Below are positions 52-27,996 of a DNA stretch of 33,450 nt, in pieces. Under the pieces are notes generated by a model. It was not told where the DNA came from. It saw only the letters and a program-made list of their open reading frames with translations, and did not search any database. The first letter of the stretch is position 1; every line of letters starts with the position of its first letter. The DNA comes from a virus, in the IMG/VR virus record IMGVR_UViG_3300012920_000132, positions 1 through 33,450 of that record; one strand, written 5' to 3'. The translations under genes and the position numbers were made by a program.

Positions 52-1770
52 TTAGCCTCCAAATACAATAGCCATAGCTATCGCCTTTCCTGTTGTGGCG
101 ACATCCGCGCCGTTGATTTGAATGTTGCCAAGGAAATTGCCACCCGATGATTTAGACACCGTGTCAGCAACCGTGAATGATTTGAAAGCGTAGATGACAA
201 TCTCAGAGCCAACAGCCGCTGTCGATGCAAGCACGATGCTTGTGCCATTGGTAGAGGTGTAGTCATCGTCATGGAGAATGACACCATCCTTCACCACAAT
301 CACATTGTCTGTCGTGTAAGAGAGCGTCAGCCCATTGTCGTCAGCCCCAGAGAACGTGTCCTCTGCTGAACCTGAGACTGTGTATTCATATATGACCATT
401 GAGGCGGAGCCAGCCGCAGAGGCCGCAATCCAGTTAGCCCCGTCATAGACACGCATTTCGTTGTCGGTTGTATTAAAATATAATGCGCCTGTAACTAGCG
501 ACCCATTGTCATTGTCCGTGGCAGGGCCGTCAGTGCTTGAGTTAAATGTGCCAAAGACGCCATGCCCTGCAAATGTTGAACTAGTCCCAGAGCCAGCCGC
601 AGTAGCAGAGTTGCTCAAACTGACAGTCGTGCCGCTTATGCCGACTACGTTTGTTCCAGCAGGAATATTTGCAGAAGTTACAAGCATACCAATAGACAAG
701 CCTGTTGCGTTATCTACAGTAATATCAGCAGACCCATTTGTTGTTGTAATAGTTGGCGTCTTAGGAGTTGGCGCAGTAGCACCATCAGCCATAGTCCCCA
801 GGTATCTATCATCAAAACTATCAAGAGCCGCACCCATAGCCGCGGAGATAGCTTTCGCACTATCCCTGGCTGATGCCGCGTCTGTCGCGGCTTGTGATGC
901 ACCTTGTACTGCGCTGATGTTTGTGGCTACAGTTTGAATGGCATCAGTCGCATCCGTGCCATCTTCAATGTGAGCCAGTGTCGTGATGTCTGCGCTGATG
1001 TCTGCCAGGGTATTCATATCAGCAACAATCGCCGCAGTACCAAGAGTGTTCATATCAGCAACAGCATCAGCCGTGCCAAGGCGACCAATCTCTGTGGTCT
1101 TGCCAGAGACGTTGGCCATTGCTGTTGCGCCGATATTGGCAACCGTTGTCACGTTGCTTGAAATACCAGCCACAGTCTGAATAGCGTCTGTGGCGTCAGT
1201 ACCGTCTTCAATGTCAGCCAGGGTAGCAATATCGTCAGTGATAGCGGCCAGGCTGTTTACGTTAGATGTAGACGGGCCAGCTTCAGGCGCACCTGATGTA
1301 GAGTTGAAGGCCAGGTACTTGCCCTTCCTGTCATCAACTGAAGGCAGGGTCATGTCCAGGCTAGTCGGGTCAGAGATGTTACCAATCAAGGCGCGGTCAA
1401 CACGCTCAGAGATTTGCTGGTCAAAGATGGTCAGGGCGTCTAGCTGTTCATTGAGAGACGCGGCGGTGAGGTCACCAGCAGTAACGAAATCTGTAGTGCG
1501 TTCAATGTCTCGCGCACCGATGATAGTAATCTTGTCAGAAGCAGTAGGGGTCGAGGAAACATTCCCGCCCGTGACCAGGGTAACTGAGCCAGTCCCGTTG
1601 GCGTTGACTGTGACTGTATAGTCTGTGGTCAGGGTCAACAGGGTTGCGTTCAGATGGACGTTGATGTCAGTCTGGTCTAGGACTTCAAAGGTAAAGCTGT
1701 ACGGTCCCAGGCCGACACTACCTGTCTGCACGGTCCTCCTGGTAACAGCATTGATGTTATAGTCAGCCAT
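52..1770 (-). CDS. Tail fibre protein, T7 gp17-like N-terminus
   Basis: A 572-aa virion protein that should attach to the tail and contact the host surface. Residues 1-130 (MADYNINAVTRRTVQTG..., ending near FDQQISERVDRAL) match the T7-type tail fibre N-terminal anchoring domain. Residues about 170-290 form low-complexity repeats, with IEDGTDATDAIQTVA present twice (187-201 and 268-282), probably a trimeric coiled shaft. Residues from about 325 to the end are Gly/Ser/Thr-rich, beginning with the common FDDRYLG motif and including YFNTTDNEMRVYDGANWI, and are probably the receptor-binding part. It follows the internal virion genes as in T7. The DNA for the C-terminal part (52-780) contains no CCWGG, unlike the N-terminal part, suggesting domain exchange. 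Confidence 0.9.
   Translation of the reverse strand: MADYNINAVTRRTVQTGSVGLGPYSFTFEVLDQTDINVHLNATLLTLTTDYTVTVNANGTGSVTLVTGGNVSSTPTASDKITIIGARDIERTTDFVTAGDLTAASLNEQLDALTIFDQQISERVDRALIGNISDPTSLDMTLPSVDDRKGKYLAFNSTSGAPEAGPSTSNVNSLAAITDDIATLADIEDGTDATDAIQTVAGISSNVTTVANIGATAMANVSGKTTEIGRLGTADAVADMNTLGTAAIVADMNTLADISADITTLAHIEDGTDATDAIQTVATNISAVQGASQAATDAASARDSAKAISAAMGAALDSFDDRYLGTMADGATAPTPKTPTITTTNGSADITVDNATGLSIGMLVTSANIPAGTNVVGISGTTVSLSNSATAAGSGTSSTFAGHGVFGTFNSSTDGPATDNDNGSLVTGALYFNTTDNEMRVYDGANWIAASAAGSASMVIYEYTVSGSAEDTFSGADDNGLTLSYTTDNVIVVKDGVILHDDDYTSTNGTSIVLASTAAVGSEIVIYAFKSFTVADTVSKSSGGNFLGNIQINGADVATTGKAIAMAIVFGG
930..1260 (-). repeat. Imperfect internal repeats in the tail fibre shaft
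   Basis: The stretch encodes two copies of IEDGTDATDAIQTVA about 81 residues apart, plus a shorter duplicated unit around ADMNTL. At DNA level the two copies have diverged, but short exact repeats remain, such as GTTCATATCAGCAACA-like stretches at about 1015-1065. They are shaft-building repeats rather than a mobile element. Confidence 0.7.
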
Positions 1771-1829: not shown

Positions 1830-4316
1830 TTATCCACCCGTTACGCCCAGGATGTTAGGGGCGCGGTCAGGGAGTGTCTGTCCTGGACGCCACCAGTAGT
1901 CCTGGTTGTAGTCTCTTTGACGGCCCCTCTCTAGCTGTCTAAACCGCTTGTAAGCGTCTGGGTCAACCATCAGCCTCAACTGGTCCAGGACAGCACGTTC
2001 AATAGCCAGGCGAAGATACCAGGTAGACGCACCAGGTAAGTTGCGTCCAAAGAAGTCTATGGTCTCTTTGCCAAGGTTAGTTTTCTCATCTCTCACAAAC
2101 TGCGCCACATTTCCGACTGTTAGGTTGCGGAGTGAGTTAAGAAACCCAACTTTAGGACCTGATGCTGTTTCTACCAGGCCACCGCCGAAACGATTGACCC
2201 CAGCAAACATGAAGTCTCCCAGGATGCCCAGGCCACCGCCAGTCAGGATAGCCGCACCCCAGAAGGACACAGTGTCCATAGGCAGTGGGTCACGGCCCTT
2301 GGTCATCTCGCGCAACTGTATAGATAGAGCCGCCATGGCAGAGGAACTGATGAGTAGGTCGGCACCGATGGCCATCTTCCTGGTTGTCCCCTTTTGGTAT
2401 ATCGCGGCCATAAGGTTGTTCTGATAGAACGTGACAGGGAAGTTTTTGAACATAGCGAACGACCTGACCAGTTCACCCGCCAAGGTTCCTGCCCTAGTGT
2501 TGCTTACCAGGGTGGTTCTGGCTCGAACTGAGCCTACAGGAACAGCCAGGTTAGTCATGCCCTGGACCATCTCCAGCATCTTGAACGCCAGTTCTCTGTC
2601 AGTTTCCATCATCTCATCAGGACGCAGGAACTTGGCACCTTTGAAGTCATATTGCTCAAAGCTGGCCATCTTGCCCCACTCAGCCTCACTGATGCCGAAC
2701 CTGGACAAAGTATCCTTGAACGGCTGGTTCAGTTGGGCATAGGGCTTGGCCGCGTTATCAGCGATGAAGCCCATGAACTCCATGCCAAAGGCCCAGCGTC
2801 CTGCCTGGGTAAATGGTGACAGGAGAGACAGGTTCATTGCAGTGTTAGCAATAGCCTCAGAAACCCTACCACCCATAATCTCACCAGCGTACCTGGCCTG
2901 GCCATAAGCAACCGATGACCAGTTCTCAGCAATAAGACCCATACGGATGGACTGCTGTTTCGTCATCTTGCCAGCAGTCATCATGGCAAAGGACTTTTGC
3001 ATTGACGACCTAAGGACAGGCATACCAGCCATGCGCTTTGCAATCCTGGTAAAGTTCGGGTCAGTAGCAATCGCCAGGATAGAAGTCGAGCCGAGGTAAG
3101 CCGCAGTAAGCAAATTGCCCAGGCCAGCAAATGTCCTGGCTACACCTTCATTCGTTGGGATGTGAGCCTTGCCACTGATATAGTCAAACATATCATCGAA
3201 CTTGTTGAAGGCCCCCTGGAGTTTAGATGAAGCCTTGTCATTGCCATTCTTCGCGTCAATCTCCTTGGCCTGTTTGGTCACCTGGGTCTTGAGAAAACGA
3301 ATAGTCGAGTTGGGGTTCGGCCCCAGGATTTCTAGCATCGCTACATCCCTGGACATCCCGTCAATGTGGTTCATCATGATTGAGAACACATCGCCGCCGC
3401 CGAACTCTTCCTGGTACTTTATCCAGGCATCTGCATCCTTGAACACCAGGAAGCGATGGTCCTGCCTTCTCCTGGCAAGTGACTTGCCCTGTCCCCCGAC
3501 AGAGGTCTCCTTAATCTTCGAGAAGCCTTCAGTCGCAATGGTCTCCCATACTTCTTCCAGTGCCTCTTCGAACTCGACCATGGTCATAGGCTTGCCAGTC
3601 TTGAAGCTGACCATCTTCTCCTCATCCAGGAGAGGCCTGACAAAAGACTTCCAGGTCTCAAGCCCTGCTTTCCTGATGGCCGAGTTGTCATGCACCTGGG
3701 GCATACCCCAGTCAGTACGCTTGGGGATGTCGCCCCCAGCCTTATTGAATGACAGCCTCAGAAACTCAGCGGCTCTTTGCCATGCCTGGGCAAGTTCCCT
3801 TGCCGCCGCGTCACCAGTGTTCTGCCCGAATATCTCACGGACCATCGGCTCATATTTAGCTTTCGCCTTCCTGGTAGTGCGGCCCAGGACCTGGGTCTTC
3901 CGCAACTGTGTAATGACATCGGACATCATAGAATGAGCCATGCCGCGAATGACTGCCTGGCGACCCACAACATTGGAGTAAGGGCTGAGACCCTTACCAT
4001 CACGCTCCAGGAACGCAATCATAGCCTCACCCTTGTTAGGGCCTTTGTATGCTTCTAGGTTCTTCAGGCTCCGTTTTAGGGTGGCCCGTTGCAATATCAT
4101 CCTGCGCTTAGTCTGGAAGGCCTCATACTCAAGAACGTCAAATGTGTCCTTCCCTGCCTTGGCATCAGCGTCAGCAGGAGACATCTTCATGTTCTTCTCA
4201 TTGTTTACCTTGAACTCAGTAAACAGTTCCCTGGCTCTCTTGGCTTGCTCTTTGGTCAAGCCGCCATTGGCTGGGCCTTCTTTCTCAGCGTTTGCGATAC
4301 AATCCAGGAGGCTCAT
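1830..4316 (-). CDS. Large internal virion protein, gp16-like (second part)
   Basis: An 828-aa protein, the last internal virion gene before the tail fibre, which is the T7 gp16 position. Its C-terminal half has hydrophobic glycine-rich segments (LGNLLTAAYLGSTSILAIA near 410, WGAAILTGGGLGILGDFMFAG near 690) alternating with amphipathic helices. That pattern is typical of ejected proteins that form a channel through the host envelope. No lytic transglycosylase motif was recognised. I chose the ATG at 4316 over an upstream in-frame GTG at 4325. The ATG overlaps the preceding stop as ATGA and has AGAGGG eight bases upstream. The gp16 role is inferred from order, size and composition. Confidence 0.75.
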   Translation of the reverse strand: MSLLDCIANAEKEGPANGGLTKEQAKRARELFTEFKVNNEKNMKMSPADADAKAGKDTFDVLEYEAFQTKRRMILQRATLKRSLKNLEAYKGPNKGEAMIAFLERDGKGLSPYSNVVGRQAVIRGMAHSMMSDVITQLRKTQVLGRTTRKAKAKYEPMVREIFGQNTGDAAARELAQAWQRAAEFLRLSFNKAGGDIPKRTDWGMPQVHDNSAIRKAGLETWKSFVRPLLDEEKMVSFKTGKPMTMVEFEEALEEVWETIATEGFSKIKETSVGGQGKSLARRRQDHRFLVFKDADAWIKYQEEFGGGDVFSIMMNHIDGMSRDVAMLEILGPNPNSTIRFLKTQVTKQAKEIDAKNGNDKASSKLQGAFNKFDDMFDYISGKAHIPTNEGVARTFAGLGNLLTAAYLGSTSILAIATDPNFTRIAKRMAGMPVLRSSMQKSFAMMTAGKMTKQQSIRMGLIAENWSSVAYGQARYAGEIMGGRVSEAIANTAMNLSLLSPFTQAGRWAFGMEFMGFIADNAAKPYAQLNQPFKDTLSRFGISEAEWGKMASFEQYDFKGAKFLRPDEMMETDRELAFKMLEMVQGMTNLAVPVGSVRARTTLVSNTRAGTLAGELVRSFAMFKNFPVTFYQNNLMAAIYQKGTTRKMAIGADLLISSSAMAALSIQLREMTKGRDPLPMDTVSFWGAAILTGGGLGILGDFMFAGVNRFGGGLVETASGPKVGFLNSLRNLTVGNVAQFVRDEKTNLGKETIDFFGRNLPGASTWYLRLAIERAVLDQLRLMVDPDAYKRFRQLERGRQRDYNQDYWWRPGQTLPDRAPNILGVTGG

Positions 4317-6460
4317 ACTACGCACCCTCTCAGTCTATCCAGCATCTGCTGGTCTTCGGCCAGTTTTTCTTTGGCAGACTTGCCACTCATTTCCCTGGTC
4401 ACAACCTGGTCGTCAATAACCTCATCAAAGAACAGGACTTCATCGTCTGGCATATTGTCGAAGTCTGTGTCTCTGGCAACTTGCTCAACGCCATCATCCA
4501 CATCTTTTGCCTGGATAGCCGTTTCCTGAGGCGCAGGGCGTGTCTGAGTGGACCCTACGGGGTCGTCTGGTAGGTTACCCCTATCCAGGTTAGCCGATGC
4601 GTCATCGGCCTTATTCATCCTCGCTATGAATTGCTCAACTGCGAGAGTATCCGCTTCATCCGCGCCTGTCCCTCTGGGCTGTCCGCGTACTGTGCTATCC
4701 TCTGGTCCGCCGCCTCGAAGTCGTAGGTCAACCCCTTCGAGGAGGTTTCTTGTGTCTTCGATGACTGGCTTGGGGTCTTCGACCCGTCCGTTGTTGTCGA
4801 TGTGCGTGTAGCCATCTGCCACTCCTTCTTCTTTTAATGTTCTGTAAGTTTGCATCGGACCATCGCCGATGCTCTTGATGTATTCATGGGGGATATAGCG
4901 ACCCGTGTTAGCGAACCGCATAAACATCCTGTTCCTGGCATTGGTGAAATTCACATCCATGCCGACCAGGTCAACCTCATAACCGTTCTTCTTCAGCTTC
5001 TGAATGATGCGTCTGATGCTGTCGGGTTTACCACCCACTTTGGGTATGACCATATTGACGCCATCTTCCAGGGCCTTGGCCATGACGATTTCTGCCAGGT
5101 ATCCACTTTCCTCATGAACAGCAGAAGCCCCGACACCATCATTGAACTCAGGCAGTATCTTTTTTGCCTCATCTGGGTCAATGATTGCGGCACCGTATCT
5201 CCTGGCAATCGGGTTAGCTATTGTAGATTTACCCGCGGCTGGTGGCCCAAGGACAACCACAGCCCTCTTGTTAAACTGGCTAGGAGCGTCAGGGATGGGC
5301 AATCCATCGTCTAAGTACCCAAGTACCTTGGCATCGTCATAGAGCCTCTGTACGGCTGTTGTATAGCCAGTAAACGTCTCTCCAGTCTTATTGTTCGTAA
5401 ACTGTCGCTCCAGGTCGTACTTGATTGACCCGTACTCAGGAGCCTTCACTGTCTCAGGAATAGAGTTCAGAGCGGCATCAGCCTTCCTGATAGCATCATT
5501 GTTCAGCAGTGTTGCCTCATCGACATTTCTGTTCAGGTCATCGACCAGCTTCAGAATATCTGCATCGGCACTTTCAGGAGGTGTAAACACATCTGGTGCA
5601 TCTGGGCTATTGATTTGAGCCAGGTCGTCTAGCTGGTCAGTAATGATGTCAGCATCAGCGGCTCTGATGCCATTGCCCCTGAAGGCTTCAATCCCACGTT
5701 TCACCTGGTCGGCGGTCAGCTTAACTCCTGTGACCCCGCCTCTCAACGCCACAGGAAAAGCTGACCCCAGGATGCCGCCAGCGGCAACATTGGTAAAAAA
5801 CTGTTCATAGGTGTAGTCCAGGCCCAGTGACTGATACCACTGCATCACACCAGCCTGGAGCATGGCCTCTGTCCCTGCGCCAATGACACCTTCTGTCAAC
5901 ATCTGACGGCCCAGGCTTGTAGTCCCTGTCCTGGCAAAAGCGGCAGGACCCATCATAAATAACTGTTCCAGGAAAGCATCGTCAGAGAAAACGCCGCCAG
6001 CAGTTCCAACGAACCCGCCAACTTTGCCCATAACTGTTTCTCTTTCCCTGGCCTCCTGCCCTGTTGTAATCGCCTCCAGGGCTTGGCTCTTGATACGCTC
6101 TTCCAGGCTCTCACGGGTCAGGTCAGCGAACTCTGGGTACAGTTCACGGTTCTCATCCAGGTGTTCGAACAACTGGTCTAGCCTGTATTCTCTCATCCTG
6201 TCGTTGTGACCAGGAGTGGCGGACATCCCAAAGTAATGACCAGGATTGATGAACTTGATGTCCTCACGCTCTTTGATTGCGTCAACCAGCGGCGCAAGTT
6301 CTTCAGTCATTAGTTCAACATAAGTGTCGATGTTTGAGCCTCTGACCTGGCTATCATAAGCCTGGCTCATGGCATCAAAAAAGCCCAGTTCCTCTCCACC
6401 GTATGCAAGGGGCGTGTCCCCTATGCCTGTGTTGTAGTATTGGTCAAAGAAGATGGTCAT
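4313..6460 (-). CDS. Internal virion protein (gp16-like first part) with a zeta-toxin-like kinase domain
   Basis: A 715-aa protein between the gp15-like gene and the second gp16-like gene, overlapping both by ATGA. Residues 1-250 are helical with hydrophobic glycine-rich segments (about 145-240), as in ejected virion proteins. Residues about 397-570 resemble the zeta toxin/UDP-GlcNAc kinase P-loop family. There is a strand-P-loop VVVLGPPAAGKST with Walker A at 405-412, then IIDPDEAKK (D428, D430), HEESGYLAEIVMAKAL (449-464), and a basic cluster R509, R511, R515 and R521 ending GRYIP. The last 130 residues are acidic and probably disordered. No antitoxin gene is visible nearby. The kinase family call is by motif; its activity and substrate are unknown. 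Confidence 0.8.
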   Translation of the reverse strand: MTIFFDQYYNTGIGDTPLAYGGEELGFFDAMSQAYDSQVRGSNIDTYVELMTEELAPLVDAIKEREDIKFINPGHYFGMSATPGHNDRMREYRLDQLFEHLDENRELYPEFADLTRESLEERIKSQALEAITTGQEARERETVMGKVGGFVGTAGGVFSDDAFLEQLFMMGPAAFARTGTTSLGRQMLTEGVIGAGTEAMLQAGVMQWYQSLGLDYTYEQFFTNVAAGGILGSAFPVALRGGVTGVKLTADQVKRGIEAFRGNGIRAADADIITDQLDDLAQINSPDAPDVFTPPESADADILKLVDDLNRNVDEATLLNNDAIRKADAALNSIPETVKAPEYGSIKYDLERQFTNNKTGETFTGYTTAVQRLYDDAKVLGYLDDGLPIPDAPSQFNKRAVVVLGPPAAGKSTIANPIARRYGAAIIDPDEAKKILPEFNDGVGASAVHEESGYLAEIVMAKALEDGVNMVIPKVGGKPDSIRRIIQKLKKNGYEVDLVGMDVNFTNARNRMFMRFANTGRYIPHEYIKSIGDGPMQTYRTLKEEGVADGYTHIDNNGRVEDPKPVIEDTRNLLEGVDLRLRGGGPEDSTVRGQPRGTGADEADTLAVEQFIARMNKADDASANLDRGNLPDDPVGSTQTRPAPQETAIQAKDVDDGVEQVARDTDFDNMPDDEVLFFDEVIDDQVVTREMSGKSAKEKLAEDQQMLDRLRGCVV

Positions 6461-9054
6461 CCACCAGCCCTCTTCAGGTCAATCAGATAAGGCTGATTGT
6501 TGGGGCCGAACAAGGTATTGCCCTTGTAGCCCAGCTTATACAGGCCATCTCCAACAGAAATCAGATAGGACTTCTTAATTACACTGAGCGGGATGTCCTG
6601 GTCATTGCCAAACCCATAAGGAGGCTGGTCGTAAGGAACAATCTCGCCGCGGTCATTTTGAGTAACAGCCAGGGCGATGACATCATCGACAGTATTCATG
6701 TTGTCAAAGATTTCATCGACCCCGCCATCACGCTTGATATTACTTGGCAGAAGGATGTTGCGCTTGTTGTAAGTGGTGAAGCCACCGAACTCTTCATCTC
6801 CTAGGATACGCATACCAGCCGCCTCTTGAAGCGCACGTTCATAGAGCCTATGGTCAAAGGCACCGCCAGCACTACCGCCTCGGCCCAGGTAGATAAGGTC
6901 AGCGACAGCAATCAGTCTGTCAGAGGTTCTAATCATCGCCTCTGAGCCGCCAGATACACCGTCCATAATTCTGACCCTGGCTGTGCGCTGGTCAGTCATC
7001 TCACCTAAGGCACGTTCCTCAGTGCCATCCTTAATGACCTTGCCACGCATTGCGGCGTCAATGATGTCTGGGGTCGCACCCGATACCATCAGGCCACCGA
7101 TATGAGCCAACTCAGGAGCGTCCTTAGAAATCTGCTTCATTACGTCCAGGGCGTTAGGACCAAACGCACCGACCACCTTCTCCAGCAATCCAGCCTGGGC
7201 TTCGATAGGAGCCTCAGACAAAGCTGTACTCAGCGCAGTCGCTTCTGACTTGGTCAGTATCTGACGAGGGATGCCATAGTGCGATGCCACTTTGTTTGCG
7301 TGTTCGACACGGCTCTGGACTGCTTCGTTGATAGCGTTAGCGTCACCGCCCAGGACAGTCTCCACGACATCAACCTTCAGGGTCACAACACCAGCACCGT
7401 TAGCCCAGGACATCGGGTCATCCTTCAGTGCTGTACGCATAGAAGTCAGACGCTTCTTCATGTCATCCAGGAGGTCGCTTTGTGCTGGAGATAGACCACC
7501 CACTTGCTGATTGATGACTGCAATCTTGTCTTCCAGGGTCATGGTGCTGTCATCAGCCACATCGTTGTAGACCTCTGACATCTTCTTCAGCATCTCAACT
7601 TCAGACCTCAATGCACCAATCATGTTCTCTGGTGCGCCTTCTGCTTCTAGCTGATTGATAGCCTCATCGACTGCACCCAGGTCTTCTTCTCTGATTTGGT
7701 CAAACCGCTGAACAACCTTCTCCAGGCTTTCAATGCTTTTGCCCACTGTCTTAGCCGCCGCACCCCACACCAGGTTCTGTTCCCTGGCGGCTGTCTCCAT
7801 AGATGACAGGCGAGACTTAACGACCTTGAGCCGCAGGATGTCATCAGGGGTCGCCCCCATATCTTTGACTTCCATGAGGCGTTGCTCTTCTGCCTCTAGC
7901 TGTTCGATGTTATAGCCCTGGATGCCCTGGAAGTATTCGATGTTCCCTTCGGCAGTTGTCAGCAAGTCCTTCAGTTCAGCAATCTTCTCCTTGTCGCCAC
8001 CCTGTTCTTCCAGGGCTGTGACACGGGAACGCAACTTGTCTACCACCTGTTGACCAGGCACACCGCCAGCAGTGACCACACTGGTTACCTCTAGCTTGAT
8101 GTCAGCCTTCAGGTTTGTAATCTCACCGTTCAGAGCCGACCTGGCTGACTTTGCCAGGGTCTCGAAGCTGTTTGCCAGGGTTTCTGCTGTACTGTCTGCC
8201 ATGCCACGGGCCAGACCTTTGCCCTTGCCAATGTCTTTGCGGAAGTCCTCTACGAACTGGAGTTGAGCCTCTGGGCTTTCCAGCCGCTCAAACTCACCCC
8301 TGGCTCTCGCAACAACAGCACGTTTCTGAGACCTAAGGCGTTCTGCCGCAATCTCTTCATCTGTAAATCCTTGACCCTTCAGATAAGCACCCATGCTGTC
8401 AAGCTGGTCATTTAGCATCTTGTCCATTGCGGCGGGGGCCATAGGAGACCTGGCAAAGTTTTCCAGGCTCTGGTTCATGACATCCAAGTTGATAGCACCA
8501 GCCGCACGGCTGGCCCTACGCTGTTCCTTGATGTAGTCCTCAGAGAAGTTCAGATACTGAGCGTTCCGATAGTTATCCAGGGTAAGCTGTAGCTTCTGCG
8601 CTGTGCCTGGGTCCAGAAGAGCCAGGGAATCGGAAAAGCCGATGACAGCCATATCCAGGCGTTCGCCTAGTTGCTGGGGGTTCTCACCCTTCTGGGTGGA
8701 ATCCAGCATGATTTCACCCATAGTCTTCTTAGCTTCGACCTCAACTTGTGCGCTAAGACCTTCGACAGCACTGGCATACGCCGCACTCTCTCGGAAGCTG
8801 AATGAAGATGGGTCACGGTCCTCCAGGCTCAAAAGGGTGCCTTTAGGGTCAGCGGCACCAGCCCGACTACCTTCAATGGTCTGGCTACGCTTTGCACTCT
8901 CGAACGCATAGTTAGAGATGCGGTCCATAGCGTTGGCGAGTGTTTGAGAAGTTCTCGCGGCCTCACGCCCCGCGGCAAAGTCTACCCTGGGAAGATTACC
9001 AGGAGCGGCAGAACGGATGGGCTGATTAGTAAGTCTGTCAAATAAATCTGCCAT
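6457..9054 (-). CDS. Internal virion protein, gp15-like
   Basis: An 865-aa, predominantly alpha-helical soluble protein, rich in Glu, Gln and Ala with extended coiled-coil-like stretches (about 300-560). It occupies the T7 gp15 slot: after the small gp14-like gene (stop and start overlap as TAATG at 9054-9056) and before the gp16-like gene (ATGA overlap). T7 gp15 is part of the internal core that is ejected into the cell ahead of the DNA. No enzymatic motif was recognised. Assignment rests on gene order, size and composition, not on a motif. Confidence 0.7.
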   Translation of the reverse strand: MADLFDRLTNQPIRSAAPGNLPRVDFAAGREAARTSQTLANAMDRISNYAFESAKRSQTIEGSRAGAADPKGTLLSLEDRDPSSFSFRESAAYASAVEGLSAQVEVEAKKTMGEIMLDSTQKGENPQQLGERLDMAVIGFSDSLALLDPGTAQKLQLTLDNYRNAQYLNFSEDYIKEQRRASRAAGAINLDVMNQSLENFARSPMAPAAMDKMLNDQLDSMGAYLKGQGFTDEEIAAERLRSQKRAVVARARGEFERLESPEAQLQFVEDFRKDIGKGKGLARGMADSTAETLANSFETLAKSARSALNGEITNLKADIKLEVTSVVTAGGVPGQQVVDKLRSRVTALEEQGGDKEKIAELKDLLTTAEGNIEYFQGIQGYNIEQLEAEEQRLMEVKDMGATPDDILRLKVVKSRLSSMETAAREQNLVWGAAAKTVGKSIESLEKVVQRFDQIREEDLGAVDEAINQLEAEGAPENMIGALRSEVEMLKKMSEVYNDVADDSTMTLEDKIAVINQQVGGLSPAQSDLLDDMKKRLTSMRTALKDDPMSWANGAGVVTLKVDVVETVLGGDANAINEAVQSRVEHANKVASHYGIPRQILTKSEATALSTALSEAPIEAQAGLLEKVVGAFGPNALDVMKQISKDAPELAHIGGLMVSGATPDIIDAAMRGKVIKDGTEERALGEMTDQRTARVRIMDGVSGGSEAMIRTSDRLIAVADLIYLGRGGSAGGAFDHRLYERALQEAAGMRILGDEEFGGFTTYNKRNILLPSNIKRDGGVDEIFDNMNTVDDVIALAVTQNDRGEIVPYDQPPYGFGNDQDIPLSVIKKSYLISVGDGLYKLGYKGNTLFGPNNQPYLIDLKRAGG

Positions 9055-9539
9055 TAGAACAACCCGAACTGTTTTGCATCACTAGCCGCGCCACCAAAAC
9101 TCTGAAGTGCCAGGATTTGTCCCTGGCGTTTGGCCAGGTTGCCAGCACCGATATACTGGGCAGACTGCATTGCACCAGCCGCTTCAATAATCTTAGCTTG
9201 CTCTTGAGACATCTCCTGGTTCTCTTTGGAGGTGTAGAAGTCAGTCACACCCTTGCCCAGGTTGTAGACAGCCAGGTTTTGAACAGAGCCAGAGAACGGG
9301 TCAACAGAACCAGCCGCGGCCCTAGCATTGATGGATGCCAGGTTCTCGGCCACTTTCTTCAGGACCTCAATGCCCTGGCGTTTGTGGTTCAATGTCTCGG
9401 CACGGGCCTGAAGCATCTGGACCTTTGCTTGCATGGTCGCTTGCTGGGCTTGCATATTGTACATGGCTTGTTGTGCGCGGCCCATTTGCATCTGGGCAAA
9501 ACCACCTATAACCTGTGCGCCTACTGCTATTGCTTCCAT
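9054..9539 (-). CDS. Internal virion protein, gp14-like
   Basis: A 161-aa Ala/Gln/Met-rich helical protein starting MEAIAVGAQVIGGFAQMQMG, then a long amphipathic helix rich in Gln and Ala, and a GSVDPFSGSVQNLAV turn near residue 77. Short Ala/Gln-rich proteins directly after tail tube B are typical gp14 counterparts, which T7 places in the outer membrane during ejection. Its start lies one base after the tail tube B stop, and its stop overlaps the next start. The role is inferred from position and composition. Confidence 0.7.
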   Translation of the reverse strand: MEAIAVGAQVIGGFAQMQMGRAQQAMYNMQAQQATMQAKVQMLQARAETLNHKRQGIEVLKKVAENLASINARAAAGSVDPFSGSVQNLAVYNLGKGVTDFYTSKENQEMSQEQAKIIEAAGAMQSAQYIGAGNLAKRQGQILALQSFGGAASDAKQFGLF

Positions 9540-14529: not shown

Positions 14530-16072
14530 TCGTCTGCTGTCCTTGTTGCATTTGTGTCATTGCGCTTTGCATTTCTGCCACAATCTGCTCACGTTGTTCT
14601 GCGGAGTTCACGACACTGCGCGGCACTCCCATCTTCTCAATGATGTAATCAACCATTGCATCCTGGTTGATTGCCACCTGACCCATAGGCCCTGCTCCTG
14701 CCGCAATCTGAGCGAACTGAAGCACGTTCTGTAGGTCTTCCATGTTTTGAGCCTGGGCCAGCGGGGACACAGGCACAATGCGAACCACCTTGCCATCCGC
14801 TTTCAGCGGCATATCAAGTAGGTTCTGTTCATCCATCACATACAGGATACGGTTCACCAGGGGCATCATGCACTCGGTAATCAGACGACCATAGGCCGCT
14901 CCCAGGTTCTGGGACAGTTCCTTCATGCGTTCCACGATTTCCGTGGCTGACCTGGCTGACTGTGTATCCAGAGGAAGCGTGTCGTCCAGGAGCATCTTCT
15001 TGATGCCCATCACCAGGTCATTGATGACTAGCTGACCGACATTGAAGTCAGACGCAGAGCGTAGTGGCTTCAGGCTTTCGCCCTGGGGACCACCGTTCCT
15101 GGCCACAGGGATGATGGCACCAGGAGCGATGGTTATGTTCTGTGGGTTCAGGACGCCATCATCGGCGGCGGTGTAAACACCAGACACGGCGATAGAAGCG
15201 TTCTTCAGCACCAGTTCCTTGACCTTGTTAAGGGTCTTAATATCAGGCAAAGCACTGACCAGGGGACCTCGGCCATAGACCTCGCCAGAGACTTTCATAT
15301 ACCTGGCAACAATCCACGGGCTGACTTCCATTGTCCGATAGACAATATCGACAGCACCAGCCGCCTTCTTGTCCTTCGAATAGGTCAGGTGATAGCAGTA
15401 AGTCTGCATCTTCTCGGACCAGACAGTGGCCTCAATGAGGTCAATCTCCTCATCTGGCTTCTCGGTCACCTTCTGTTCCAGGTCAGCAGGAAGTTTGGCA
15501 TCTGGCCACTGCCGCTGGATAACATCCAGGCGGACACGCATTTTGCGGTAGACGTTATCGACCACGCCATACGGGCCTTCTTCCAGGCTCACCAGGTACT
15601 GTGGGACAGCCGTGAAGCGGACAGGAGCGTCCTCATCGCCTGGCTGAACCATCATGACGGCTGTGCCAACACAGAGGTCCAATAGAAATTCCGACATAGC
15701 CAGGTCGAAGTTGGTCTGACGCACAACGTCAAACAGCTTCTCGGTGTAGATGTCGAGAGCCTGGCTGATTTCATCTTTACGTTCCTCAGGCACATCGTTG
15801 CCAGCCTGGAGGCGGCACCAGTTACGATATGGCGGGAACAGGGCAGACTGGATGCGGTTAGCGAAACGCTGGGTCGAGTTGATGGCAGTAGCGTCAAACA
15901 CCCTGGCCATCTTGTTCTGACCTGGCGTCTTCCCCTCATAGTAGCCAGAATACAGGTTGCGCTGGGGCAGTGCGAACTCATAGCACTCCTCATAGATGGT
16001 GCGCCACTGGTCCTTCCTGGCTTCGGCCTTCTCGGCCCGTTTCATAACCTCTCGCGGTTCAAGTTTTGCCAT
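14522..16072 (-). CDS. Portal (head-tail connector) protein
   Basis: A 516-aa protein of the T7 gp8/podovirus portal family, forming the dodecameric ring through which DNA enters and leaves the head. Recognisable elements are ATAINSTQRFANRIQSALFPPYRNW near residue 60, EVSPWIVARYMKVSGEVYGRGP near 250, a LPDIKTLNKVKE helix near 275, and the late SARSATEIVERMKE motif near 375. The length is typical. It overlaps the DUF6321-like gene upstream by 14 bases and the Bbp19-like gene downstream. Confidence 0.93.
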   Translation of the reverse strand: MAKLEPREVMKRAEKAEARKDQWRTIYEECYEFALPQRNLYSGYYEGKTPGQNKMARVFDATAINSTQRFANRIQSALFPPYRNWCRLQAGNDVPEERKDEISQALDIYTEKLFDVVRQTNFDLAMSEFLLDLCVGTAVMMVQPGDEDAPVRFTAVPQYLVSLEEGPYGVVDNVYRKMRVRLDVIQRQWPDAKLPADLEQKVTEKPDEEIDLIEATVWSEKMQTYCYHLTYSKDKKAAGAVDIVYRTMEVSPWIVARYMKVSGEVYGRGPLVSALPDIKTLNKVKELVLKNASIAVSGVYTAADDGVLNPQNITIAPGAIIPVARNGGPQGESLKPLRSASDFNVGQLVINDLVMGIKKMLLDDTLPLDTQSARSATEIVERMKELSQNLGAAYGRLITECMMPLVNRILYVMDEQNLLDMPLKADGKVVRIVPVSPLAQAQNMEDLQNVLQFAQIAAGAGPMGQVAINQDAMVDYIIEKMGVPRSVVNSAEQREQIVAEMQSAMTQMQQGQQTNE

Positions 16073-16358
16073 TCTTCTTACCCTTCAATCTCTTTGACAT
16101 TGCCGCGGCCTTCTTCCTGGCATCAGCTTTGGATGACGCCCCCCAGGCGCGTAAGGAAAGGAGTAACCTGGTGGGGCGTCCTTTGCTGTCCCGTTCTGGG
16201 CCAGAGTTCCCTGCCATTCTGGCCAGGAAAGAAGCGCGGCGTGGGTTGTCACCCGAACGAACTGGGGGCTTGAGGTTGGCTCCTTCGGTGCGCTTGAAAT
16301 GAGCGCGACCCGCGGCGTTCAATCCACCCTTAGGATTTTGATGTCTTTTTAGCGTCAC
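16059..16358 (-). CDS. Small basic DUF6321-like protein
   Basis: A 99-aa very basic protein with NPKGGLNAAGRAHFKRTEGANLKPP, RRASFLARMAGNSGP and LLLSLRAWGASSKADARKKAAA. It matches the DUF6321-type proteins found near terminase and portal genes of many marine phages; the function is unknown and DNA contact is plausible. The start is a GTG at 16358, with AAGGGA seven bases upstream and no better ATG in frame before the conserved NPKGG. It overlaps both neighbouring genes. Confidence 0.75.
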   Translation of the reverse strand: MTLKRHQNPKGGLNAAGRAHFKRTEGANLKPPVRSGDNPRRASFLARMAGNSGPERDSKGRPTRLLLSLRAWGASSKADARKKAAAMSKRLKGKKNGKT

Positions 16359-16569: not shown

Positions 16570-16744
16570 TTTCACGCTCCTTCGAGATACGGTCCATCAT
16601 TGCTGGCGTTAGCTTGCCAGCCTTATACAAACGCCGCGTGTTCAAGATTTCCCTGCGCCTGGCGTCAGGGTTCTTCGACCCCGCGATGTACTTCTTCGGA
16701 ACACCAGACTTCTTGTCCTTCGGGACTTTCTTGAACTTACGCAC
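16562..16744 (-). CDS. Small basic hypothetical protein
   Basis: A 60-aa protein with KKSGVPKKYIAGSKNPDARRREILNTRRLYKAGKLTPAMMDR, a pattern seen in small basic phage proteins near portal genes. The start is GTG at 16744 with GGAG ten bases upstream. The next in-frame Met comes only near residue 49, so the GTG is needed. Almost a third of its residues are Lys or Arg, which suggests nucleic-acid contact. The function is unknown. Confidence 0.65.
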   Translation of the reverse strand: MRKFKKVPKDKKSGVPKKYIAGSKNPDARRREILNTRRLYKAGKLTPAMMDRISKERENA

Positions 16745-17123
16745 CGCTCAACTTCTCCGACTTGTTCTTTGGAATACCCTTACTCGCGTTTGCGCGGTAA
16801 GGCGACAACAGCAACCTGGTTGCACGACTGCCTCTGCGCCTGGCTCTCGACCTGGCAGAAGCATTGGCCTTGCGCCGCTTCTCCTGGTCGTCCAGGCGTT
16901 TCTCTTGTTTCTCCAGGACGGCTATTTGTTTAGCCAGGGCTTTTTCGGCTTTCTTTTTTTGGGCCTCCATAGCCTTCTTCTGAGCGGGAGACGGTTCGCC
17001 CCTACGCTCATGCTTGTCAATGCCAGCAACAGTATCGACTGTTTCTTGAAGGGCCTTTTTGCCGATATTTGTGACGGCATCTGTGACCTTCTTAAAAGGC
17101 TTGAAGAACGAACCCAGGCCCAT
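16737..17123 (-). CDS. Small basic coiled-coil protein, paralogue of its neighbour
   Basis: A 128-aa protein starting MGLGSFFKPFKKVTDAV, with a Lys/Glu/Gln-rich coiled coil near 40-85 (LEKQEKRLDDQEK) and a basic tail RSRARRRGSRATRLLLS. The same coiled-coil-plus-Arg-rich order occurs in the gene immediately upstream (17126-17395), so the two are tandem paralogues. Proteins of this kind sit next to terminase in many podoviruses; a DNA-packaging or virion role is inferred from position only. Confidence 0.7.
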   Translation of the reverse strand: MGLGSFFKPFKKVTDAVTNIGKKALQETVDTVAGIDKHERRGEPSPAQKKAMEAQKKKAEKALAKQIAVLEKQEKRLDDQEKRRKANASARSRARRRGSRATRLLLSPYRANASKGIPKNKSEKLSGA

Positions 17124-17125
17124 GA

Positions 17126-17395
17126 CTATGCACCCAGGGTCGTGTTACCACCCTTGCTCAAGCCTTGTGCGGCAGAACCGCCACGGGCGGCTGACAAGAG
17201 GAGACGATAACCGCCACGACCTCTGCGCCTTGCACGGGCTGAAGATGCGGCCTGTCGCTGTGCCGACTTCTCTTGAGCATCAAGACGAGTTTCCTGCTTC
17301 TCCAGGATTTCAGTCTGCTTATCAATCGCCTTTTGTTGCGCTTCCATCTGTGGTCGCGTGTCAGGAATTTTTGGTTTAGAGAAAATGCCACCCAT
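17126..17395 (-). CDS. Small basic coiled-coil protein, paralogue of its neighbour
   Basis: An 89-aa protein, MGGIFSKPKIPDTRPQ..., with coiled coil ILEKQETRLDAQEK near residues 30-43, then SARARRRGRGGYRLLLS and a Gly-rich end. It shares the LEKQE-RLD-QEK core and the RARRRG--RLLLS stretch with the next gene. The short N-terminal MGGIFSKPK motif is common in phage structural proteins and could be myristoyl-like in appearance only; no bacterial lipidation is implied. The start overlaps the preceding stop by ATGA. Confidence 0.7.
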   Translation of the reverse strand: MGGIFSKPKIPDTRPQMEAQQKAIDKQTEILEKQETRLDAQEKSAQRQAASSARARRRGRGGYRLLLSAARGGSAAQGLSKGGNTTLGA

Positions 17396-27133: not shown

Positions 27134-27310
27134 ATGACCCTTCGGGAAAAGATATGGACCTTCTTCGATGTCACCGAGAAGATGCACCGCCTCGACTACA
27201 GCACTGGCGCAGTCTTGTACTGCGTCACCTGGAACGGGAAGCCTTACCAGGCGGCGACACCTCATGACCTGGTTGAGGCAGTAATCACAGACACGGAGGA
27301 AGCCGAGTGA
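27134..27310 (+). CDS. Small early hypothetical protein of 58 residues
   Basis: MTLREKIWTFFDVTEKMHRLDYSTGAVLYCVTWNGKPYQAAT... starts at ATG 27134 with GGAGG eight bases upstream, and ends in an acidic tail. Its stop overlaps the GTG start of the recombinase gene by four bases (GTGA). The good ribosome binding site and exact fit between neighbours support it as a gene. The function is unknown. Confidence 0.65.
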   Translation: MTLREKIWTFFDVTEKMHRLDYSTGAVLYCVTWNGKPYQAATPHDLVEAVITDTEEAE

Positions 27311-27996
27311 AGAAGAAAGCCGCCATTTATCTTCGGGTCTCGACCCAACGCCAGGGCCAGAGTGGCCTTGGCATCGAAGCCCAGAGGGAGATTGTCAACA
27401 AACACCTGGGCGATGACTGGGAGGTTGTCGCCGAGTTCACAGAGCATGAGAGCGGCAAGCGTTCTGACCGTAAGCGTAAGGAACTTCGTGCCGCCCTGGA
27501 ATACTGCAAGGCCAACGATGCGACCCTGGTCATCGCCAAGATTGACCGACTGACCCGTAACCTGGCTTTTCTGACCAGGCTCCTGGAACAGGGCGTCCCC
27601 GTGATTGCCTGTGATATACCGCAGATGCACAACCCTGCGGCCACCAAGTTCGTCCTGCAACTCATGGCCAATATCGCCGAGTATGAGGCAGAACTTATCT
27701 CTGAAAGAACAACCAACGCCCTGGCCGCTAAGAAGGCACGGGGCGAGACGTTAGGCACCCCGACACCAGAGCGGGGCAGTAAGCTAGGTGGTGAGGCCAC
27801 CAAGCAAGCTGTCCAGGACTGGGCTGAAGACCTGAGACCGATTGTCCAGGACCTTCAGAAGTACGGGTGCGACACGCTCAAGAAAGTTGCCCAGGGCCTG
27901 GAGGCCAGGGGAGCGACAACTTTCCGCGGCGGAAACAAGTGGGCGTTGTCTAGCGTCCGTAATCTTCTCAACCGTTTGGAGGTAGCTAATGGATAA
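27307..27996 (+). CDS. Serine recombinase (resolvase/invertase family)
   Basis: A 229-aa site-specific recombinase. The catalytic domain has YLRVSTQRQ with Ser12 and Arg10, VIAKIDRLTRN with Asp80, Arg81 and Arg84, and the long E-helix (about 110-140). The C-terminal 70 residues carry a DNA-binding helix set (DTLKKVAQGLEARGATTF...WALSSVRNLLNRL). Start is GTG 27307 with GGAGG seven bases upstream. It is the size of a resolvase rather than a large phage integrase. It may resolve multimers, invert DNA or integrate. No att or res sites were recognised. Confidence 0.88.
   Translation: MKKKAAIYLRVSTQRQGQSGLGIEAQREIVNKHLGDDWEVVAEFTEHESGKRSDRKRKELRAALEYCKANDATLVIAKIDRLTRNLAFLTRLLEQGVPVIACDIPQMHNPAATKFVLQLMANIAEYEAELISERTTNALAAKKARGETLGTPTPERGSKLGGEATKQAVQDWAEDLRPIVQDLQKYGCDTLKKVAQGLEARGATTFRGGNKWALSSVRNLLNRLEVANG

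Follow-up and report, generated by a model that had tools for sequence, protein, structure and literature searches.

We found that P0001, a 715-amino-acid protein encoded on the minus strand (4313..6460) of the virus record IMGVR_UViG_3300012920_000132 (the window, the whole stretch of 33,450 nucleotides that was analysed), carries a zeta-family P-loop kinase as an exchangeable cartridge, and that related phages hold a Tas1-like enzyme at the same site. Our results support a model, to which we assign a probability of roughly 0.58, in which P0001 is an ejection protein of a podovirus, of the epsilon15 gp16 type, that delivers an exchangeable metabolite-targeting effector, here the kinase. The open reading frame (ORF) is intact and begins with ATG; an earlier reading of the DNA (the original prediction) had recognised the kinase motifs without giving the strand. 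Assignment to the internal virion/ejection proteins draws on the ORF, on synteny and on a C-terminal tail common to epsilon15-type phages. Three parts can be distinguished, all on the minus strand: a conserved N-terminal delivery region (residues 1–297; 5570..6460), delimited by identity between the relatives L002 and L003 and containing by hydropathy a hydrophobic stretch at about 219–250; the cartridge (about residues 298–604; 4649..5569), obtained by mapping the L002/L003 swap breakpoints onto P0001; and a conserved tail (residues 605–715; 4316..4648) that ends DQQMLDRLRGCVV and is common to slot proteins of differing cargo.

The kinase domain almost certainly has the zeta-family fold. The Pfam profile PF06414 (Zeta_toxin) matched residues 393–558 (4787..5284) with E=4.3e-23 and 82.2 bits against a curated cut-off of 22.3, a score so far above the cut-off that the motif match is not due to chance; the next Pfam family, AAA_33, scored under its own cut-off, and only one enzyme was recognised in the protein. 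An AlphaFold model built from 21 sequences had a predicted local distance difference test score (pLDDT) of about 85–94 over most of the domain, and its best solved fold match was zeta toxin 1gvn_B (Z 16.3, 2.6 Å, 197 residues; model residues 340–572), followed by PezT (Z 15.2), AvrRxo1 (14.6) and polynucleotide kinases (13.7). Thus, both the profile search and the comparison with PezT and epsilon-zeta structures that the original prediction had proposed came out in its favour. Its motifs also lie where it had put them: the Walker A sequence GPPAAGKS (residues 405–412; 5225..5248), IDPDE (427–431; 5168..5182), HEES (449–452; 5105..5116), and the arginines R511 and R515, which with R521 span 4898..4930, together with GRYIP. 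In alignment to 1gvn, K411 corresponds to Lys46, D430 to Asp67, whose catalytic role is established (PMC3062530), E457 to Glu100 and R515 to Arg158, so that the catalytic aspartate is kept, as is an equivalent of Arg158. K411, D430, K433, H449, S452, V475, G476, R511, R515 and R521 are invariant across 18 diverse homologues, although the pairing of R521 with zeta Arg171 falls beyond the sequence alignment. P0001 therefore shares with zeta toxin and PezT (PF06414; PDB 1gvn, 2p5t) the fold, the Walker A motif and the Asp67 and Arg158 equivalents, but differs from them in having V475 and G477 in place of Thr118 and Arg120, in being fused within a virion-slot protein and in lacking an adjacent antitoxin gene.

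The kinase domain is an exchangeable cartridge, and its exchange for a Tas1-like module has occurred repeatedly. Proteins related to P0001 fall into two sets, full-length relatives (L001, L002) versus unrelated phage proteins that align over residues 301–582 only. L003 has the N- and C-terminal parts of L002 around a different middle: their N-terminal regions are 87% identical in amino acids although the cargo differs, and DNA identity in the flanks is 90.7% over 5.4 kb, 83.7% over 0.9 kb and 95.4% over 1.4 kb, whereas the middle is at chance. The protein breakpoints in L002 (298–604) agree with the independently defined module (301–582). In a PDB sequence search, the L003 middle matched the type VI effector Tas1 (6ox6_A, E=9e-6), a relationship exposed by that search only, since Pfam and PHROG scans of the module gave no significant match. 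A search of viral contigs for more copies of the module returned only its own contig, and homologues emerged instead from a survey of the slot. A second pair, L048 and L051, has amino acid identities of 82% over residues 1–661 and 79% for the tail. The zeta domain in L051 belongs to a different subfamily (IDKTLGK, Thr retained), and the L048 cargo is homologous to the L003 module (E=1e-27), its predicted fold matching Tas1 with Z 16.6 over 188 residues. In a third clade, the same site is occupied by zeta (L083), by an RSH-like module (L081, L087, L105) or by nothing (L070, L088, L091), with L087 and L091 95% identical over 740 residues. Related RSH-like modules occur in L040, L069, L080, L081, L087, L095 and L105, and in L062 by the Pfam family RelA_SpoT. 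Tas1 (6ox6), a relative of what L003 and L048 carry in place of zeta, is not present in this window; it is delivered by a secretion system and has an immunity protein in its solved complex.

Gene order places P0001 very probably in a virion slot. The minus strand encodes, in order, terminase, portal, major capsid protein, tail tubular proteins A and B, a 161-residue protein (9054..9539; gp14-like by position and size), an 865-residue protein (6457..9054; gp15-like by position and by a match to the phrog_992 head protein, E=1e-13), P0001, an 831-residue virion structural protein of phrog_684 (1830..4325; E=6e-165) and a tail fibre (52..1770; PHROG match). P0001 overlaps both of its neighbours, the gp15-like gene at its start and the phrog_684 gene at its stop. 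Because the latter is homologous to epsilon15 gp17 (and to phiV10 p20 and VP5 gp18), P0001 lies in the epsilon15 gp16 slot, between the gp15-like and gp17/phrog_684 genes, and has the C-terminal tail in common with that type. The internal-virion place claimed by the original prediction is thus supported, but the closest mapped analogue is gp16 of epsilon15 and phiV10 rather than T7 gp16. Like P0001, epsilon15 gp16, phiV10 p19, VP5 gp17 and HTVC024P gp46 precede a gp17/phrog_684 homologue, and a short tail with a conserved cysteine region at its end is common to them and other distant slot proteins; no zeta domain was found in the cultured slot proteins examined with Pfam and our own profile. 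A near-identity DNA search of the window against phage records gave no match. A recent epsilon15 paper (PMC12391199) assigns epsilon15 gp15 and gp17/16 to a packaging/injection device, citing earlier work, unlike a review of ejection proteins that names epsilon15 gp11-13 (PMC8954989), which we did not use for slot assignment. By analogy of position, P0001 is likely to be packaged and ejected, and its injection into the host is probable.

Zeta domains are frequent in this slot but not fixed there. The closest 80 of 514 relatives were surveyed with gp17 as the anchor, since searches with the N- and C-terminal parts alone gave few loci, and 52 non-redundant slot proteins were scanned with Pfam. 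The original prediction had recommended looking for the domain in related internal virion proteins, and it is present in 14 of the 52. Peptidoglycan hydrolases occur in nine (Phage_lysozyme2 in four, GH108 in three, SLT in two), and the remaining families were GNAT (three) and RelA_SpoT, PBECR1, PBECR3 and LPD23 (one each), the PBECR families being nucleases. A tree of gp17 was built for 71 phages, of which 19 have zeta. It requires 11 changes of the zeta label, as against 17 for shuffled labels, and at least 10 of the 11 are forced by well-supported branches; zeta is therefore clustered but has been gained or lost repeatedly. In a Roseococcus metagenome-assembled genome (MAG) contig (L126:4958-8458), a zeta domain (residues 678–858) is inserted within a gp17/phrog_684 homologue, with hidden Markov model matches on both sides, which means that the ejection gene next door can receive the cartridge as well. 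In another phage type (L010:4028-6786), a stand-alone zeta of the P0001 subfamily directly follows a gene of a DNA ejection protein family (phrog_26400). The slot proteins of L039, L022 (Dunaliella viridis virus SI2), L015 and L070 have in common an F-Q-F/Y..ADGHQR region that by eye resembles the ParB-like domain of polyvalent proteins; for L039 there are also matches to phrog_10691 and to the C-terminal portion of the portal family phrog_21.

P0001 departs from its solved relatives at residues of the substrate site. In zeta toxin, Thr118 touches the beta-phosphate of uridine diphosphate (UDP)-N-acetylglucosamine (UDP-GlcNAc, or UNAG) and Arg120 the UDP phosphates, and a T118V mutant of PezT is reported to be non-toxic (PMC3062530). 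P0001 has P473, V475 and G477 where zeta has Glu116, Thr118 and Arg120; they lie within PKVGG (residues 473–477; 5030..5044), an instance of the subfamily motif P-x-V/I-G, and both UNAG contacts of the UNAG-3' kinases (zeta/PezT) are accordingly absent. The Thr118 position is V in 13, T in 3 and I in 1 of 17 slot hits; among 81 bacterial-genome hits it is I in 39, V in 36 and T in 2, in a set that was collected with patterns from the P-x-V/I-G subfamily and is hence biased toward it. The original prediction had named UDP-GlcNAc as the zeta substrate, and that part of it is weakened, whereas family membership, the Walker A lysine and the catalytic aspartate stand. From these residues, the simplest reading is an active kinase with an altered substrate. 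Other sugars or nucleotides are possible substrates; UDP-GlcNAc or another UDP-sugar is an unlikely one. The gonococcal toxin ng_zeta1 favours UDP-MurNAc (PMC5923241), but a subclass assignment to ng_zeta1 by residue spacing was dropped because the lysine at Asp+3 also occurs in canonical zeta and the topology of ng_zeta1 is rewired. The cartridge would, somewhat more probably than not, be an active host-directed effector.

Several explanations compete with effector delivery. The kinase could phosphorylate UDP-GlcNAc or another UDP-sugar such as UDP-MurNAc, weaken wall synthesis and so aid entry or lysis. Zeta and PezT are its closest solved relatives, zeta toxins vary in sugar and site (ng_zeta1 being an example), relatives hold peptidoglycan hydrolases in the slot protein, and such a role has been proposed for MuF-zeta fusions (Iyer 2017, PMC5512222). 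Against this, the substitutions at the UNAG site are nearly subfamily-wide at the Thr118 position, where the corresponding PezT mutation abolishes toxicity, and the commonest non-hydrolase alternative cargo, RSH/Tas1-like, does not act on the wall; we therefore regard wall weakening as unlikely. A second role, that of a structural ATPase of the ejection machine or, as envisaged by the original prediction, of a repurposed one that powers ejection, would account for a P-loop within an ejection-slot protein, but it is very improbable, since near relatives have an alarmone synthetase instead of the domain, or lack any substitute for it, while the flanks stay highly similar, slot proteins of cultured relatives are short and lack it (HTVC024P gp46, for example, has 418 residues), and the best-scoring folds belong to small-molecule and polynucleotide kinases, with no motors among them. 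Equally hard to credit is a degenerate kinase kept as filler: the substrate motif has indeed changed, but the Walker A motif, D430, K433, H449, S452, R511, R515 and R521 are invariant in the 18 homologues.

P0001 might also be a polymorphic toxin of a temperate phage acting between bacteria, as MuF toxins are, with virions from lysogens poisoning non-lysogens and an immunity protein protecting the lysogens. MuF polymorphic toxins are phage structural proteins with exchangeable toxin domains, RelA-like ones included (Jamet 2017, PMC5576092), and zeta and RelA/SpoT fusions to MuF are known, with wall weakening by injected zeta kinases proposed (PMC5512222). Cargo exchange on a constant carrier in L002/L003, L051/L048 and L083/L087/L091 resembles theirs. 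With a serine recombinase at 27307-27996 on the plus strand (phrog_125 invertase, phrog_95 integrase), the phage could be temperate or could switch one of its segments, and the description of it as lytic in the original prediction is not supported. Zeta-bearing slot genes that overlap a gp17 homologue also occur in Aquisalinus, Rhodobacter and Polaribacter MAG contigs (L109, L110, L111), possibly prophages. However, a small ORF comes after 89% of MuF toxin genes (PMC5576092), whereas 69 of 73 loci have less than 100 bp between the slot stop and the start of gp17, which leaves no room for an immunity gene. In the window, no antitoxin gene adjoins P0001, whose overlapping neighbours are both virion genes; the original prediction had likewise seen no epsilon-like antitoxin. 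P0001 also differs from MuF toxins in its podovirus ejection-protein carrier and in the conserved tail behind the cargo, and a Pfam search at E<=1 gave no match to MuF. Such a toxin is accordingly improbable, more so than wall weakening. Polyvalent proteins, which are injected and multidomain and for which zeta and RelA/SpoT are listed (PMC5512222), offer a further comparison, and one slot relative, L055, has LPD23; unlike them, P0001 has a single recognised enzyme, and its ejection gene is a conserved one that accepts the cargo at a defined cassette site.

Some considerations count against effector delivery as well. Peptidoglycan hydrolases in several slot proteins mean that the role of the slot may be partly mechanical entry in the periplasm. 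The survey was positional and confined to the 80 closest relatives. Finally, the L003 contig contains Ns and all contigs are metagenomic assemblies, yet the exchange pattern recurs in three independent lineages.

If P0001 is indeed an effector-delivering ejection protein, it would be packaged in the head and ejected with the DNA or ahead of it, and its hydrophobic N-terminal part would help form a channel through the envelope. The cartridge would be exposed to the host cytoplasm; zeta and Tas1-like enzymes both need adenosine triphosphate (ATP). Early in infection, the kinase would move a phosphate from ATP onto a small metabolite, probably of nucleotide type, and thereby disturb host metabolism or growth during takeover; related phages may achieve something comparable with a Tas1-like alarmone synthetase at that site. 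A broader model, which we hold tentatively and at somewhat less than even odds, is that podophage ejection proteins form a separate class of polymorphic effector carriers with a fixed delivery region, a fixed tail and a cassette site, at which metabolite-targeting toxins (zeta of at least two subfamilies, Tas1-like enzymes and RNases) interchange without immunity genes, and in which the substrate of the P-x-V/I-G zeta kinases is not UDP-GlcNAc.

Stand-alone P-K-I/V-G zeta proteins of about 305 residues are also found in cells, many of them in Bacteroidota (L130, L132, L134, L148, L159, L164, L177 and others). Within about 20 bp after their genes there is often an ORF of 70–110 residues, a possible antitoxin, but we do not claim an antitoxin family for these ORFs, whose mutual similarity is weak. 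Elsewhere in the window, the interval between portal and terminase encodes three small basic proteins on the minus strand (16059-16358, 16737-17123 and 17126-17395) with a common R-L-L-L-S motif, the last two of which look like tandem paralogues.

That injected phage proteins may contain zeta kinases has already been proposed, in general terms, for MuF fusions (PMC5512222). In the literature searched, we found zeta reported neither from internal virion proteins nor from ejection proteins, and came across no account of a position within an epsilon15-type ejection protein or of replacement by Tas1-like enzymes. Relative to the material searched, the novelty thus lies in the carrier, in a defined cassette site that a conserved tail follows, and in the recurrence of swaps from zeta to Tas1-like modules. 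Our results suggest a second function for the DNA-ejection proteins of short-tailed phages, that of carrying exchangeable enzymes that attack the host. If true, this carrier role would explain the large size variation of the slot gene, and the action of ejected proteins in the cytoplasm would become directly testable. The repeated exchange of zeta and Tas1-like enzymes at one site implies that both solve the same phage problem, which gives a handle on the purposes of both. Our work also marks out a large subfamily of zeta kinases with a substrate pocket at odds with the UDP-GlcNAc chemistry given in textbooks.
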